IMG/VR virus record: IMGVR_UViG_3300042448_000434
Location: 1-43,350 of that record
From: a virus
Direction: 5' to 3' (one strand)
DNA: 43,350 nt
Shown here in pieces: positions 307-43,032 of this stretch (positions are counted from its first letter, which is position 1; each line of letters starts with the position of its first letter). Made by a program: the position numbers and the translations under genes. Under the pieces are notes generated by a model. It had not been told where the DNA came from. It searched no databases and saw only the letters and a list, made by a program, of their open reading frames with translations.

Positions 307-316
307 TTGTAAATTA
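307..316 (+). promoter_or_regulatory. TTGTAAATTA box before endolysin
   Basis: Exact TTGTAAATTA eight bases before the ATG at 325. It is one of nine similar boxes found close upstream of rightward late genes. If it acts as a -7 element, transcription would start at or very close to the start codon. Confidence 0.45.
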
Positions 317-1490: not shown

Positions 1491-1733
1491 TTAATTTACC
1501 AATTTACGATACACAAACTCCGCTACAAGTGGCGAGAAAAGTGCGTAAACAATATCAATTCCAATTACAAAATAGAATAGAACTGAGAACCAGAATGTTG
1601 AGCACAATACGCAGTTGAATGGCTTAAAGTTTAGTCGCTGTTCTACAAAACTCACATAGGGGTCAAATATATACAGGTAGGAAAACATCAATCCGGTGGC
1701 TACTACAACCACCCAGGTTTCATAAATTGTCAT
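1491..1733 (-). CDS. Membrane protein with CxxC motif (DUF1360-like?)
   Basis: An 80-residue hydrophobic protein with a first membrane segment near residues 7-24 and more hydrophobic stretches around 46-75. Between them lies FNCVLCSTFW, a Cys-x-x-Cys next to Phe-Trp, which recalls the DUF1360 family of small membrane proteins. It starts in an ATGA overlap with the stop of the sigma-like gene upstream, so the two are probably translationally coupled. Function unknown; a role at the host membrane is the most that can be inferred. Confidence 0.65.
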   Translation of the reverse strand: MTIYETWVVVVATGLMFSYLYIFDPYVSFVEQRLNFKPFNCVLCSTFWFSVLFYFVIGIDIVYALFSPLVAEFVYRKLVN

Positions 1734-2131
1734 AAATCTTTACTTAAATTATCATCTTTGGTGTAGCGAAGATACTTCATAACTATGCTGCCATCCTCTA
1801 CAATTCTTACCTTTCCAGATATTTTTTGTCCATATACATCGCTCCACTTCAAAGAGGTCATCTTGTTGTACATAGCCGAGAATATCATAGAGATTACAAG
1901 GTTCGCTGCGCTTTCGTTTGGCCTGTAGTAGTGCAGAAACTTCTCGCAACAGCGCATAACGCCCTCATCGATTAGCACCTGCACAAGTTCTTGGTTGTCT
2001 GGTGACTTAAATGAGGAGTTGGCTATCTCTCCAGCCCTGTCAAGTATAAACCTGCCGAGCTTCTCTGTTATCCTGCCGTTCTCCACCGAGAGCTGCGCCT
2101 CAATCTCTATCTGCTCCTTGTCGTATCTCAT
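1730..2131 (-). CDS. Late sigma-like factor (T4 gp55-type)
   Basis: With the ATG at 2131 (MRYDKEQIE) the product is 133 residues; an ATG at 2179 would overlap the upstream gene much more. The core follows the sigma region-2 pattern seen in T4 gp55: a helix around ITEKLGRFILDRAGEIA, a gap, then QELVQVLIDEGVMRC with an aromatic HYYRPNES stretch and NLVISMIFSAMYNKM. In T4, gp55 directs host RNA polymerase to late promoters that have only a -10-type element. This gene lies near the end of the leftward unit. The assignment comes from pattern recall, not alignment; a general small DNA-binding protein is the alternative. Confidence 0.55.
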   Translation of the reverse strand: MRYDKEQIEIEAQLSVENGRITEKLGRFILDRAGEIANSSFKSPDNQELVQVLIDEGVMRCCEKFLHYYRPNESAANLVISMIFSAMYNKMTSLKWSDVYGQKISGKVRIVEDGSIVMKYLRYTKDDNLSKDL

Positions 2132-2324
2132 TTTCCAAGGAAGTAAGCATTGATAATATCTCTGGCATATAGTCTGCAAGTTCTGAAGGTCTCACCTTCA
2201 TATTTTTTGCTATGCCAACGAGTGTGACGTTCTCTCTGTTGATGACGCGGACCCTTATCTGCTCATAGAGCTCAATAAGGAAGTCGGCCTCATCCTTGCT
2301 TAAGATTTCGTAATAGTCGTCCAT
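2100..2324 (-). CDS. Small HTH-like protein (74 aa)
   Basis: Acidic, helical protein with a stretch (VTLVGIAKNMKVRPSELADY, about residues 34-53) that looks like a helix-turn-helix. It overlaps the sigma-like gene by about 30 bases at its 3' end and the next upstream gene at its 5' end, so it belongs to the same tightly packed operon. It could act with the sigma-like protein, but nothing beyond position supports that. Confidence 0.6.
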   Translation of the reverse strand: MDDYYEILSKDEADFLIELYEQIRVRVINRENVTLVGIAKNMKVRPSELADYMPEILSMLTSLENEIRQGADRD

Positions 2325-4723: not shown

Positions 4724-5043
4724 TTTGTAAATTCTTGGTTGTAGTCTTGTTCTTTGTGTGCGAATGATTCTGATATTGGCTTTTGTTCAAAGCACTGCTT
4801 GACATAAAATTCTTTAATCTTTTTGCCTGTCAGCCCATTCTGAACCATCATTTGGTAGATGATTTCAGGGTTGGCGTTGATATGTTCTATGCTCTTTGCT
4901 CTTGACACAAACTCATAAGGTCTGTCCTCTGAGCCCTTGTAGTGGTTGACGTATGATTTACCATAGGTAACCTTCCAAGCAAGCTGAACCTTGTATAGGT
5001 ATATTGTCTGAAACAATGGTTGCTGTTCTGTAGTTTCCTCCAT
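4720..5043 (-). CDS. Hypothetical protein before helicase (107 aa)
   Basis: Soluble, fairly basic protein with a central helical region (EFVSRAKSIEHINANPEIIY). No family recognised. Its stop overlaps the helicase ATG by four bases (4720-4723), so translation is likely coupled. A loader or accessory for the helicase would fit its place, but only position suggests it. Confidence 0.65.
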   Translation of the reverse strand: MEETTEQQPLFQTIYLYKVQLAWKVTYGKSYVNHYKGSEDRPYEFVSRAKSIEHINANPEIIYQMMVQNGLTGKKIKEFYVKQCFEQKPISESFAHKEQDYNQEFTK

Positions 5044-13642: not shown

Positions 13643-13675
13643 CAAATATACTGCAAAGAAAGTTTCAAACGCAAA
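13643..13675 (-). promoter_or_regulatory. Leftward early promoter, Bacteroidota type
   Basis: On the minus strand TATATTTG (13643-13650) is preceded, after 21 bases, by TTTG (13672-13675). This matches the TTTG / TAnnTTTG arrangement of Bacteroidota housekeeping promoters. Transcription would begin near 13636, about 45 bases before the ATG at 13591. Confidence 0.7.
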
Positions 13676-13800
13676 GTTGAAATGTTGAACGGAACAAATT
13701 TTGATTGTGTGTCTAACTGACCACTAAGTCCGGGGGGAATGAATCAAAAACGACTCCCCTCCAAATCATTCACATTTTCTCTGTCTATTATTATACTACT

Positions 13801-13826
13801 ATAGAATACTCTATACGAGTATTCTA
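13801..13826. repeat. Palindrome GAATACTC/GAGTATTC
   Basis: GAATACTC (13804-13811), loop TATAC, GAGTATTC (13817-13824), with two more pairs outside. It is part of the AT-rich element 2 and is similar in style to the GC-containing hairpin of element 1 at 8352-8371. Confidence 0.75.
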
Positions 13827-13858
13827 GTATTATTACATTTATATTATTACAATATATA

Positions 13859-13912
13859 GTAATATAGAAAGTATACTATAGATAGTATACTATATATAGT
13901 ATACTATTATAC
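13859..13912. repeat. AT-rich element 2 with three 14-bp iterons
   Basis: AGTATACTAT occurs at 13870, 13884 and 13898, exactly 14 bases apart. The first two and the last two copies each form perfect inverted repeats with the intervening bases, because ATAGTATACT also reads across the spacers. The element starts with GTAATATAGA and ends with ATACTATTATAC, as does the right part of element 1 (8379-8404), so the two are related, with extra iterons here. GTATAC-centred palindromes suggest binding sites for a dimeric protein. Confidence 0.8.
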
Positions 13913-13944
13913 AAACTTCTTTTAGTAATTCATAACGTAATTCA

Positions 13945-13955
13945 TTGTATATTTG
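13945..13955 (+). promoter_or_regulatory. TTGTATATTTG box before first rightward gene
   Basis: Contains a perfect TATATTTG (13948-13955) only three bases before the ATG at 13959. No good TTTG lies at the usual upstream distance. If it is a -7 element the transcript would start in or just before the start codon. Confidence 0.5.
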
Positions 13956-16603: not shown

Positions 16604-16613
16604 TTGTAAATTA
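16604..16613 (+). promoter_or_regulatory. TTGTAAATTA box before tail gene
   Basis: Exact TTGTAAATTA 12 bases before the ATG at 16626, right after the stop of the preceding gene. Confidence 0.45.
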
Positions 16614-22513: not shown

Positions 22514-25030
22514 ATGAGCTACAGACTAAGAGTAAACAATCAGTTCCTTGATTTATTTCCCAATCAAGAGATTGCCATTGGTGTGGATTACTATGACACC
22601 ACAAACATAGATTCCATAAAAATACCATTTAGCTTTAACTCTGACGTTCCATACACTCTTAAAAACAAAACCGCATTAGGCTATAACGATGCCAACGGAT
22701 ATGGTGGTATTCCATTGACGGAGTACGATTATGAGGTATACAAGGGTGATGACATTGTTTCGTCAGGGAGGGCAAGGGTTCAATCTGTAGTTATAAACTC
22801 CCTTGAACCAATATTTACCCTTGAGTTAAAGGATAAGGTCTCTGAATTTTCTAAGGCTCTTAGGGACCTAAAGATTGAAGATATATACAACGATGCTTTC
22901 TCTACCCAGGTTAGGACTTTGTCTACCTACTTGTCCGCTAACCAAGGTTACGACCAAAGGGACATTGAGATACCATTTATTGATTTCGATAACATTCAAA
23001 AAACAACAGGATATGAATCACGTCAATTTACTTCGTGGGGCACTAGTGGAAAAAAGTTTGGTCTTATGCCAGCGCTTAGAGTCATTGACTTTATTGATAG
23101 GGTATTTAGTGCAGCTGGTATAGCGTACACTTCAAAGTTTGTTTCAGGAACAGGTTCTTGGGACCCTAGGAATCTTTACATACTTTATCCAACTTATCTA
23201 TCGGCAACCCCAGCAAGCAAGAGAGAGAGCTTTCTGTTTCCATTTCCATATAATGTTCAGGCAAATACAGACCAAGATTTATCTACAGGAGACATAACCC
23301 TACTTGGAGTAAATTATACTATTGCCCCAATAACAAACTATAAGCTAATAGCAAAAGAATCATACGAACCATTTGGGCCAACCAACTACGCCGCAGAAGA
23401 AATCGTTATTTCAAGAGAATATGGGGACCAAGTCAGAAAGCCTGGCGGTGTTACTGACTGGGGTGATGAAAATGTAGGATATGTTTCCTACGGCTCTAGC
23501 TTTGATGCCAAGTTTTCTTTTACTAACGGAAGCGTAACCATTCCAGCCCTGAAGACCTGTTTACTTACAATCGATAGAGATATATCTGACCAAGGTATTT
23601 ATCCACACATTGTAAGTGTTCAAGGTACTTCTAATGCGGTATTTACTCCCTATGTTTTGATTTACGAGTCATATACAACATCTAGTGCTCCAAAATACAG
23701 GATACCAATAGTTGACAATTCCAACAACCCAATACAATTAACGGTTGCATCTATTGAACAAAATACCGGAATTGATAGCAACGGATACTCTGTTCAGCCA
23801 AGTTCTACCATTGTTTTTAATTCATTCACAGGAAGTATTGATAGCACAGAGCTGTATCAGATAAGCGGGGGAAGCACATATTCATACGCTATTGGCGTTT
23901 ATATGGATTCCGGCTCGATAGACGCAAGGACAAGCTGTATTGCTTTAAATCAGAATACTCAAGGTCTTCAATTGATTAATGTGGATGATGATGCCGTGTT
24001 AGTCCAAAATGACTTTGTAAAACAAAGGACATTTGGATACGACTGGAGCACCCTTGGCTTAAAGCTTGACAACATTGGCTCGGTTCCAGCAACAGTCCCA
24101 AGTGACAATTTTCAATTCAAAGAGTCTTTGTCTAACAATAAGTCTTATGGTGTTTATGACATTATGATAGACATTATGAAACGCTTTGGACTTAGCGTAA
24201 TCTACGATTACACGACTGGCGATATAATTCTTGACAACCTGAAAGACATAAGGCTTACAATAGCTGCAATGGATGGATATCTTGACACGCTAAAGCCATT
24301 TGAGGTTGAGTCTGGCGTTGTCCCACCAAAGACCCTAAAGCTTTTAAACAAATTAGAGAACGGAATATATGACAAGACAGATTCCGAACTAGCTATTGGT
24401 AGCTTTGATGGTGTGTGGAAGGCAAATGGTTCCGGAGAAAAGTCTTTAGAGTTTAAGACATCTTTAATCAACCCAACAAACAAATCTGTTTGTGGAGAGC
24501 AATTCTTTGGCGACCCAATACTTTTAAGCAATGGACTTGTTGCCATTCAAGAGATTGGTGATATAAAATACGAAATCCCTGACTACGATAGGGTTGGGCT
24601 TAGGATATTTTACTTAAGGGAGCCTAACTTTGGTACTACATTAAGATATCCTGTGTTCCGCGAGTACAATGATTACGGGCAAAGGATTCGGCAGATTCTA
24701 TACAAGAGTGCTGGAACTTACTTACTTCAGGGATACCCTGTTAACTCACTATCCGGTAATCAGATAGACTTGCGGTTTGTTTTGGCAGATGGCAGTACAT
24801 CTGATTCCTATGACTACTTGGTTAGCACTGAGCGCTTTGCGGCAAACGAAAAAAGCAAGATGTCTTTTTACGCTGCGATACCCGATACTATGTTTCAGAA
24901 CGGAGACCTTTACAAAAAGAAGTTTAGGTTTAATAAGACTGGAGAAAACTTTATCGTAAACTCGTTAACTGACGCTAAAATCTATAATGGGTATATGTAT
25001 GGCAAATTTGAGGTGATTTTTGTAGATTAA
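22514..25030 (+). CDS. Tail-tip/baseplate protein (838 aa)
   Basis: Large strand-rich protein lying after the distal-tail candidate. An N-terminal part (LRVNNQFLDLFPNQEIAIGV) is followed by a long region of alternating strands and turns, then DIMIDIMKRFGLSVIYDYTT (about residue 552-571) and a C-terminal KFRFNKTGENFIVNSLTDAK. It probably forms the hub or receptor-facing tip of the tail. No enzymatic motif is visible. It ends four bases before the next ATG. Confidence 0.65.
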   Translation: MSYRLRVNNQFLDLFPNQEIAIGVDYYDTTNIDSIKIPFSFNSDVPYTLKNKTALGYNDANGYGGIPLTEYDYEVYKGDDIVSSGRARVQSVVINSLEPIFTLELKDKVSEFSKALRDLKIEDIYNDAFSTQVRTLSTYLSANQGYDQRDIEIPFIDFDNIQKTTGYESRQFTSWGTSGKKFGLMPALRVIDFIDRVFSAAGIAYTSKFVSGTGSWDPRNLYILYPTYLSATPASKRESFLFPFPYNVQANTDQDLSTGDITLLGVNYTIAPITNYKLIAKESYEPFGPTNYAAEEIVISREYGDQVRKPGGVTDWGDENVGYVSYGSSFDAKFSFTNGSVTIPALKTCLLTIDRDISDQGIYPHIVSVQGTSNAVFTPYVLIYESYTTSSAPKYRIPIVDNSNNPIQLTVASIEQNTGIDSNGYSVQPSSTIVFNSFTGSIDSTELYQISGGSTYSYAIGVYMDSGSIDARTSCIALNQNTQGLQLINVDDDAVLVQNDFVKQRTFGYDWSTLGLKLDNIGSVPATVPSDNFQFKESLSNNKSYGVYDIMIDIMKRFGLSVIYDYTTGDIILDNLKDIRLTIAAMDGYLDTLKPFEVESGVVPPKTLKLLNKLENGIYDKTDSELAIGSFDGVWKANGSGEKSLEFKTSLINPTNKSVCGEQFFGDPILLSNGLVAIQEIGDIKYEIPDYDRVGLRIFYLREPNFGTTLRYPVFREYNDYGQRIRQILYKSAGTYLLQGYPVNSLSGNQIDLRFVLADGSTSDSYDYLVSTERFAANEKSKMSFYAAIPDTMFQNGDLYKKKFRFNKTGENFIVNSLTDAKIYNGYMYGKFEVIFVD

Positions 25031-25537: not shown

Positions 25538-25547
25538 TTGTATATTA
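25538..25547 (+). promoter_or_regulatory. TTGTATATTA box before protease-scaffold gene
   Basis: Exact TTGTATATTA seven bases before the ATG at 25555, in a 19-base gap. Confidence 0.45.
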
Positions 25548-26530: not shown

Positions 26531-26540
26531 TTGTATATTA
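26531..26540 (+). promoter_or_regulatory. TTGTATATTA box before major capsid gene
   Basis: Exact TTGTATATTA 18 bases before the ATG at 26559; leaves room for a short leader. Confidence 0.5.
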
Positions 26541-28124: not shown

Positions 28125-28469
28125 ATGAAATTTATTTTAAACGGACAAAACAACGAGCTATCATTTGTAAAAGCTCCTGCTATGTCAGACATCGCATTTA
28201 CTATTAAGCTGACTAAAATTGTAGGAGAGCAGGAATATGTCTTTGATAACCTGTACGACAAGTATGATTTTGATGTAGCTAAAGACTTTATTGGTATTGA
28301 CCTTGATATCTCACCACAGGAAATTGCAGGTGGGGAGTATAAGCTCGAAATTTATGACAATATCCGAACATACGGAAATTACATTTGTTTAGTAGAAGAC
28401 TACACTTTTGAGAACTCTGATAGTAATGATGACTTATTTACCAGTACAGTTAAGATAAGTAACTTGTAA
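28125..28469 (+). CDS. Structural hypothetical protein (114 aa)
   Basis: Beta-rich soluble protein (AFTIKLTKIVGEQEYVFDNL, then GEYKLEIYDN near residue 66 and a C-terminal FTSTVKISNL). It lies between the tail-tube candidate and the portal gene, so a head or neck accessory is likely. No family recognised. Its Leu-stop codons (TTGTAA) are part of the box before the portal gene. Confidence 0.55.
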   Translation: MKFILNGQNNELSFVKAPAMSDIAFTIKLTKIVGEQEYVFDNLYDKYDFDVAKDFIGIDLDISPQEIAGGEYKLEIYDNIRTYGNYICLVEDYTFENSDSNDDLFTSTVKISNL

Positions 28470-28473
28470 ATTA
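28464..28473 (+). promoter_or_regulatory. TTGTAAATTA box before portal gene
   Basis: Exact TTGTAAATTA seven bases before the ATG at 28481; its TAA is also the stop of the preceding gene. Confidence 0.4.
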
Positions 28474-28480
28474 TATTAAA

Positions 28481-29725
28481 ATGAGCGTTTTCACTAAGGT
28501 TGTTGATTTTTTTGCTTCGAACACTTTTGTTGTTGCGAAGGACAGCAACATTGCCACAAACCCACTCGAAAAGTCAATTGAAAGCCTAGACAATCGCTAT
28601 GCGGTAGGCAATACAATCGCTGGCGACTACATCAAGTTTGGTTATGGCGATGACTTTCCCATCCTGTTGCAGCGTATGTACAACCAATCACCAGTTCACG
28701 CTGGTATTGTTACCAAGAAAGCAAAGATGGTTGCTGGAAACGGCCTAGATAGCTCCGTAGATGAAGCGTTCAAAGCTCCTATCAAAAGGGCAGAGATAAA
28801 GGCTTTCCTCGCTAACTGCGCTGGTAAGTCTCAAGGTCTGTACGAGCAGATAGTACACGCTGCGTTTCAGCAGGAGCTTAATGGTGCTTTTGCGTTTTAC
28901 ATTAAGTGGAACAAAGAACACAACAAGTTAATTGAGTTCAAGTCTCTTGACATTAAGGGTATCCGTATTGCGGAGCCAGACGAAAACGGTCGTATAACTC
29001 ACTACATTTTAAGACGTAAGTTTGGTAAGGGAGATGTGTCTATGCAACACAACCAACCAAAAAAGATTGCTGCCTTTGATAAGTTCGGAAAGGAACACGA
29101 GCAGGTCCTTTATGTCAAAAATCCATACAGCAACAATCACTATTACGGTGTTCCGAACTACATTTCAGCGTTCCATTTTATCAGTGCGGACTACGAATTT
29201 GGTAAGCACATACGCAACTCCGCTGCCAACGGATTTACTCCAAAAGTTCTCGCAACATTCGTTGGACGTAATATGTCTAATGACCAAAAGAGACTAGAGT
29301 TTGATAAGTTCAAGGCATCATTCGTGGGCTCTGAGTCAGAGACAGTTATTGCCTCTTGGGTAAAGAGCAAAGAAGACGCTCCTATATTTACTCCTCTTGA
29401 CGTAAGCAACTTAGACAAAACCATTGATATACTTAGCCGTCTTAATGACGCTAAGATTCTTACTGCTCACAATGTAACCTCACCAACTCTATTTGGTGTT
29501 ATGGTTGCTGGTAAGCTTGGTGGTACTGGTAACGAACTCGTTAGCGCATATCAGATTTTCCGAGCTACGGAGACACTGCCTAACCGGGCAAACATTATGG
29601 ACTCTATGAATAGGGTTCTTAATACCGTTGGTTATGACAAGATTAACTTGTCGATTATCGAAGAGCCTATAAACCTTGAATCGATTAAGGGGGCAAACAC
29701 TAACGACATTCCTTCTGAGCAATGA
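28481..29725 (+). CDS. Portal protein
   Basis: 414 residues. An N-terminal region with YIKFGYGDDFPILLQRMYNQ followed by SPVHAGIVTKKAKMVAGNGL, a middle with FIKWNKEHNKLIEFKSLDIK-like strands and PNYISAFHFISADYEFGKHI, and a late AHNVTSPTLFGVMVAGKLGG with a helical C-terminus are the usual blocks of Bacteroidota phage portals. It would form the 12-fold ring for DNA entry and exit and bind the terminase. It lies after the capsid gene instead of before it, which is unusual. It overlaps the connector gene by four bases. Confidence 0.8.
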   Translation: MSVFTKVVDFFASNTFVVAKDSNIATNPLEKSIESLDNRYAVGNTIAGDYIKFGYGDDFPILLQRMYNQSPVHAGIVTKKAKMVAGNGLDSSVDEAFKAPIKRAEIKAFLANCAGKSQGLYEQIVHAAFQQELNGAFAFYIKWNKEHNKLIEFKSLDIKGIRIAEPDENGRITHYILRRKFGKGDVSMQHNQPKKIAAFDKFGKEHEQVLYVKNPYSNNHYYGVPNYISAFHFISADYEFGKHIRNSAANGFTPKVLATFVGRNMSNDQKRLEFDKFKASFVGSESETVIASWVKSKEDAPIFTPLDVSNLDKTIDILSRLNDAKILTAHNVTSPTLFGVMVAGKLGGTGNELVSAYQIFRATETLPNRANIMDSMNRVLNTVGYDKINLSIIEEPINLESIKGANTNDIPSEQ

Positions 29726-30243
29726 GCATTGTAAAAGTTATCTTTATTGACGACAACTACGTCTATCAAAACTATCCTCTGCCCAAGAAGTTAGACCGTT
29801 CTTCCTTGCTGTCTCTTATTATGTTAGAGCAGGTTACCTCTATTCAGGACTTGTTAGGTACGGACCTATACGAGGAGCTTGAGCAAAAGGTTTTTGATGA
29901 GGATTTGACCTCAACAGAGGCTGGCTTATTTAAGTTAGTAAAGTACTGCCTTGCCCTTTATGTTGTCCGTAGTGCTATTTCTACTATCCGCACAGCGATA
30001 GGAAGCACAAAAGCAGAAGAAAAGAATTTAGACCAATATGCCCTTGATGGAATCTCAAGTGGGCTGGACTCCAAGATTAGTTATATCAATCAACGTATTG
30101 TAAATTATATCAAGGGTGATGCAACGCTTTTAGCGTCTGCTCAAGCCAGTACCAACGATTTGTTCAACGAGGAGGATTCGCAGCAGTCTTCGGTATACTA
30201 CCCAGTATATCCTATTGAAGGCGATTGCGATACTAACGCATAA
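29722..30243 (+). CDS. Head-tail connector protein (DUF6712-like)
   Basis: 173 residues with YPLPKKLDRSSLLSLIMLEQ then TSIQDLLGTDLYEELEQKVF near the start and a helical middle (LFKLVKYCLALYVVRSAIST). This pattern of a helical neck protein next to the portal gene matches the DUF6712 family of Bacteroidota phages, which I believe are connectors. Its start overlaps the portal stop (ATGA). Confidence 0.65.
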   Translation: MSIVKVIFIDDNYVYQNYPLPKKLDRSSLLSLIMLEQVTSIQDLLGTDLYEELEQKVFDEDLTSTEAGLFKLVKYCLALYVVRSAISTIRTAIGSTKAEEKNLDQYALDGISSGLDSKISYINQRIVNYIKGDATLLASAQASTNDLFNEEDSQQSSVYYPVYPIEGDCDTNA

Positions 30244-42084: not shown

Positions 42085-42095
42085 TTGTATATTTG
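42085..42095 (+). promoter_or_regulatory. TTGTATATTTG box
   Basis: Contains perfect TATATTTG (42088-42095), 21 bases before the ATG at 42117. The spacing is suitable for a normal promoter with a short leader. Confidence 0.55.
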
Positions 42096-42499: not shown

Positions 42500-42509
42500 T
42501 CGTATATTA
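42500..42509 (+). promoter_or_regulatory. TCGTATATTA box
   Basis: One mismatch from TTGTATATTA, 23 bases before the ATG at 42533. Confidence 0.4.
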
Positions 42510-42817: not shown

Positions 42818-42844
42818 GAAAGCCCTTCGGGGCTTTCTTTTTTT
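42818..42844 (+). terminator. Strong terminator before lysis cassette
   Basis: GAAAGCCC (42818-42825), loop TTCG, GGGCTTTC (42830-42837), then seven T. The last of the T-run overlaps the start of the next box. Confidence 0.95.
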
Positions 42845-42852
42845 GTAAATTA
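42843..42852 (+). promoter_or_regulatory. TTGTAAATTA box before lysis cassette
   Basis: Exact TTGTAAATTA directly after the terminator and 18 bases before the GTG start at 42871. A terminator followed at once by this box is good circumstantial evidence that the box is a promoter. Confidence 0.6.
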
Positions 42853-42870
42853 CTTAAACACTAACACGTT

Positions 42871-43032
42871 GTGAAGCCCGATTCCACAGAAGCTATTGCC
42901 ACCACTTGGAGCCTTACGGCAAGTGGAGTATTGCTCACCCAGCTACAATCCATTCTTGGGTTGGTTGTCCTAGTTTTATCCTTAGCATACACCCTATGGC
43001 GGTGGCACAGGGATATAAAGATTGGTAAGTGA
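42871..43032 (+). CDS. Holin candidate 1 (53 aa)
   Basis: GTG start at 42871, first residues KPDSTEAIATTWSLTASG, then a hydrophobic segment LLTQLQSILGLVVLVLSLAY (about residues 20-40) and a basic end RWHRDIKIGK. One membrane helix with a polar N-terminus and a positively charged C-terminus is a usual small holin shape. The stop overlaps the next gene's GTG by four bases (GTGA). It is the first gene behind the terminator and box, followed by a second membrane protein and, after the join, the endolysin. Its role is inferred from context. Confidence 0.6.
   Translation: MKPDSTEAIATTWSLTASGVLLTQLQSILGLVVLVLSLAYTLWRWHRDIKIGK

Follow-up and report, generated by a model that had tools for sequence, protein, structure and literature searches.

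Does a phage of about 43 kb encode a late sigma factor of its own, with a set of promoters to match? The question is raised by virus record IMGVR_UViG_3300042448_000434, all 43,350 bases of which were analysed and are called the window here. A first-pass annotation had proposed that a small protein of the leftward operon resembles the late sigma factor gp55 of phage T4, and that nine boxes ahead of start codons on the opposite strand form its regulon. We favour a reading of this kind, in which a gp55-like late sigma consisting of region 2 only would serve its own promoter set, and give it a probability of about 0.78 on the basis of the predicted structure and the sequence comparisons below.

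Small early genes occupy a leftward block from about 1.5 to 13.6 kb, and a late block runs rightward from 13.96 kb to the endolysin gene (325-759), taking in the portal gene (28481) and tail fibres on the way. A relative (L002) reads through the joined window ends, which makes a nearly complete, circularly permuted genome probable. The nearest cultured matches are the Nonlabens phages P12024S/L for portal and protease, and Flavobacterium and Riemerella phages for the helicase, which indicates a phage of Bacteroidota with a probably flavobacterial host. A scan of genome and MAG contigs for the host yielded one short contig only and no host; this sole family contig (L173, JABJFP010000307), from the Euryarchaeota MAG SI074_bin128, is probably misbinned and was rejected as a host clue. 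The divergent intergenic region between the early and late blocks (13780-13920) is crowded with TATAGTATACTAT-type palindromic repeats.

Features of the window discussed in the text
Feature	Position	Strand	Context
80-aa hydrophobic protein, conserved KPFNCVLC...FW motif	1491..1733	-	follows in the sigma operon of most relatives
gp55-like sigma region-2 protein (predicted), 133 aa	1730..2131	-	AlphaFold2 model and structural matches
74-aa helical HTH-like protein	2100..2324	-	overlaps the sigma start by ~30 nt
host-type (Bacteroidota sigma-A) promoter, TTTG-N21-TATATTTG	13643..13675	-	head of the early leftward operon
late box TTGTAAATTA	307..316	+	ahead of endolysin gene 325
late box TTGTATATTTG	13945..13955	+	late operon head, ahead of 13959
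late box TTGTAAATTA	16604..16613	+	ahead of 16626
late box variant TTGTAGATTA	25020..25029	+	ahead of 25035
late box TTGTATATTA	25538..25547	+	ahead of prohead-protease-like gene 25555
late box TTGTATATTA	26531..26540	+	ahead of 26559 (probably capsid, by position)
late box TTGTAAATTA	28464..28473	+	ahead of portal gene 28481
box TTGTAAATTA	30098..30107	+	within gene 29722-30243
late box TTGTATATTTG	42085..42095	+	ahead of 42117
late box variant TCGTATATTA	42500..42509	+	ahead of 42533
late box TTGTAAATTA	42843..42852	+	immediately 3' of a terminator-like hairpin

Predicted fold of the 133-residue protein

The claimed open reading frame exists, and by predicted fold its product is a sigma region-2 domain. 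The AlphaFold2 model, built with an alignment of 20 homologs, has a pLDDT of 83.5, and both Foldseek and VIA-align find its best PDB match in chain 7d7c_F, the T4 gp55 of an open complex with RNAP and promoter. Foldseek places this chain at rank 1 (prob 1.00, TM 0.59), as does VIA-align with Z = 12.7 and an rmsd of 1.6 Å over 91 residues at 13% identity, a score to be read in the knowledge that unrelated helical bundles can reach Z near 13. Almost all VIA-align rows below gp55 are also sigma region 2. After region 2 the model continues with a short helix and a beta-hairpin of low confidence (block pLDDT 58-76), at the place where T4 gp55 has a helix-loop-helix. The best viral structural match is A0A1B4XWX9 of Tenacibaculum phage pT24, likewise a Bacteroidota phage (TM 0.62/0.69, prob 1.00), an unannotated hypothetical protein with 18% identity.

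The proposed likeness to gp55 and sigma factors is thus borne out by the predicted fold and goes undetected by sequence profiles. Neither the single protein nor the alignment found a reliable match in PHROGs, Pfam or the PDB sequences, and Pfam PF04542 (Sigma-70 region 2) gave no match above cut-off in the window or its relatives. An hhalign comparison with the T4 gp55 profile is co-linear over 51 columns but weak (probability 2.6%, P 0.017) and shows no reliable sequence similarity to gp55; no homolog turned up in cultured phages by tblastn.

All sigma-bearing relatives examined have, immediately 5' of the sigma gene and in most cases overlapping it, a gene for a 74-residue HTH-like protein. 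Its AlphaFold2 model (pLDDT 88.7) matches sigma region 3 and TetR/AraC-type HTH domains equally weakly (Z 6-7), which is within chance range and supports an assignment neither as gp33 nor as sigma region 3. A degenerate pair of late-type boxes, TCGTAAATTGGTAAATTA, is seen on the minus strand at 1501-1518, 3' of the sigma gene and ahead of a short ORF. The pair, which the first reading had missed (1501-1509), recurs in L001, L002, L006 and L007 about 223 nt past the sigma gene.

The late box, its conservation and its spacing

The box has the form T[T/C]GTAWATTA. Eight of the nine boxes originally listed are exact and the one at 42500 has one mismatch; the gaps from box end to start codon are confirmed at 3-23 nt, except that no long ORF follows the box at 42843, only a 53-aa GTG ORF at 42871. 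Two further plus-strand sites had not been listed. The variant at 25020 begins 15 nt upstream of gene 25035, where relatives have a perfect TTGTAAATTA, and the copy at 30098 lies 151 nt upstream of tail-fibre gene 30249. A box at 4725, also missed originally, lies within an early gene on the opposite strand and was set aside as a late site.

The core TTGTAWATT occurs 10 times on the plus strand of the window and not once on the minus strand, with 1.8 expected over both strands and a maximum of 5 in any of 100 shuffles. When 8-mers were tested without bias in the 45 nt upstream of 23 late starts (744 k-mers), the box came first with 11 observed against 0.77 expected (P 7e-10). A scan with the family weight matrix recovers the same sites plus 25020, with few strong sites elsewhere. 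Strand counts, k-mer test and matrix scan agree that the box is not equally common within genes or on the minus strand.

Of 80 terminase relatives, nearly all have the box ahead of the orthologous late genes, and at the portal gene it is kept between L008 and the window despite differing flanks. Across 69 clusters of dissimilar flanks, conservation is limited to the box and its A/T edges; an upstream element sought there from -45 to -7 amounts to at most 0.14 bit, and no -33 element is seen. The box is missing where a late gene follows its neighbour with little or no gap. By comparison, the early operon is headed by a host-type promoter of two parts, and the late boxes have no second part. A putative promoter with a single element, as in T4 late transcription, agrees with these data.

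Measured from the box start, the start codon is never nearer than 14 nt in 117 distinct sites, with peaks at 15 and 22-23 nt and distances up to more than 40 nt. This minimum is what a -10-type element would give, and we infer that the late box is such a promoter element. In flavobacteria the sigma-A box TAnnTTTG occupies -12 to -5 (PMC9723704). With the TA of the late box likewise at -12/-11, an offset of 15 would put the start site on the A of the ATG, and several late mRNAs would be leaderless.

Several boxes of marine relatives have a GC-rich hairpin, terminator-like in most cases, immediately downstream and still ahead of the next start codon (55-72 nt), which is an unusual order for a putative promoter and a terminator. 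Such sites are L155 1427, L157 15511 and 12726, L166 2003, and L169 12292 and 9719.

Which factor reads the box

The box varies between genomes and does so in concert within them. L087, L088 and L090 have TCGTAMATTA at the late sites of each genome, and L091 has TTGTATATCA at both of its two sites. Variants that shift together within one genome point to one trans-acting reader, implying a single phage-encoded factor, from which concerted change would be expected. The 133-residue protein is, we infer, that reader.

Its distribution was followed by a profile scan of IMG/VR, in which 175 stretches encode sigma relatives; the best 80 of the 175 were fetched. Of 29 related records, 16 contain the sigma gene, and the others are in many cases fragments; in G001 the contig ends are cut exactly at the sigma locus. 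The long TCG-clade records G023 and G025 also carry it (42-45% identity). Rescanning the records without a hit with wider profiles added none. In G007 (53,339 bases; L252-L254) late genes have boxes and no sigma or partner is recognisable even at full sensitivity. Between its lysis genes and early operon, about 22 kb of other genes take the place of the sigma locus. They include a 3119-aa ORF and long plus-strand genes that make up a second set, so the record may be chimerically assembled, or the locus may really have been lost or replaced.

Such boxes without a recognisable sigma would fit a host factor as reader. The late boxes would then be extended -7 elements (TAnnTTTG) recognised by the host primary sigma, and the phage protein would act otherwise, for example by modulating RNAP. 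The late box does share a TAnnTT core with the flavobacterial sigma-A promoter (PMC9723704), and TTGTATATTTG at 13945 and 42085 even holds a perfect TATATTTG. However, most boxes end in TTA rather than TTTG, the G before the TA is invariant, and the -33 element that is present at the early operon head is not seen in the 69 flank clusters. The concerted switches to TCGTA and ATCA are unexpected from an unchanged host factor, and the phage protein itself has a predicted region-2 fold. We regard this explanation as improbable.

Position just upstream of start codons on the coding strand, in a phylum without Shine-Dalgarno sites, could also be that of a translation or mRNA element, either a start-site enhancer or a processing site. 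We consider this very unlikely: the spacing ranges too widely (14 to over 40 nt), the box is missing from late genes that have little or no intergenic gap, a copy under synonymous constraint lies within a gene, well away from the start of the following one, and in some relatives a terminator-like hairpin separates box and start codon. Equally hard to credit is a different phage protein as reader, with the sigma-like fold serving as an anti-sigma factor or in another process. Many of the early proteins scanned have no known function, and the HTH-like neighbour, judged by its model, could bind DNA; against this, the region-2 fold is most like gp55, and box and sigma gene occur together in most long records. 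The gp55-like late sigma with its own box is favoured by fold, enrichment, conservation, concerted variants and the lack of a -33 element, and the parallel late regulon originally envisaged is supported to that extent.

In this proposed system, a minimal sigma of 133 residues, consisting of region 2 and a short C-terminal hairpin, would be made from the early leftward operon, bind host RNA polymerase (RNAP) and guide it to late promoters of one element, T[T/C]GTAWATTA. Late transcripts would begin at the late start codons or a few bases ahead of them, and the switch would run from early to late.

Relation to T4 and to other flavobacterial phages

T4 late transcription uses the sliding clamp gp45 and the coactivator gp33. 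No PF00712 clamp was found in 12 records, and no clamp or gp33 family among the early proteins scanned; the host clamp or the 74-residue HTH-like neighbour could be a substitute clamp or coactivator. T4 gp55 ends in LDFLYEAND, a hydrophobic-acidic C-terminal epitope for clamp binding (PMC2988020), whereas the window family ends in KDDxxSxxL, lacks an aromatic-hydrophobic patch in the homolog alignment and has no clamp-binding tail. Shared with T4 gp55, which combines a region-2 fold with a single -10-type promoter element (7D7C; PMC7892883, PMC2988020), are the predicted fold and, presumably, a single late element and the reuse of host RNAP. The box TTGTAWATTA belongs to a ~43-kb phage of Bacteroidota type, whereas gp55 belongs to T4-type phages. 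In the literature searched, neither gp55-like sigmas nor late boxes are described for phages of Bacteroidota.

In a marine clade (L186-L251), a gene that precedes the HTH-sigma pair contains a box, TGTAAATTA, which lies 378-396 nt upstream of the sigma start. Its codons are fixed as TGT for Cys and AAA for Lys in 46 of 46 distinct sequences each, and adjoining codons are free to vary. Synonymous sites frozen in this way indicate a constraint on the DNA and suggest that the marine sigma drives its own operon from a hidden promoter. The window has no such in-gene box upstream of its pair. A more ambitious scheme, which we think rather doubtful, is a split late sigma, in which the region-2 protein would be joined by the 74-residue protein as a region-3-like part reading TYG before the TA, and the marine pair, self-driven from the promoter inside the upstream gene, would form a positive-feedback late switch without a sliding clamp.

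Nonlabens phage P12024S (L174, NC_018271) is a candidate for a second late-sigma system in phages. It encodes an ECF-like sigma, B617_gp33, with an annotated region 2 that passes the Sigma70 region-2 profile, and has CGTTAMTA 12 nt ahead of six late starts on one strand only (167, 3019, 5400, 23949, 25189 and 26790), with AAACAAA upstream in five of the six. P12024S and the window have in common a phage-encoded sigma (predicted in the window), a motif that recurs ahead of late genes, and portal and protease proteins that are distantly related. Its late motif, however, has two parts (AAACAAA and CGTTAATA), whereas the late box of the window is single. This contrast suggests that flavobacterial phages recruited different sigma types for one task.

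If the gp55-like reading is correct, the mode of late transcription that T4-type phages use would extend to small phages of Bacteroidota type, a large family without cultured members, which have a box of their own and apparently no sliding-clamp tether. Because the box changes in concert within this family, recognition between sigma and promoter could be examined directly by exchanging proteins and boxes from one clade to another.
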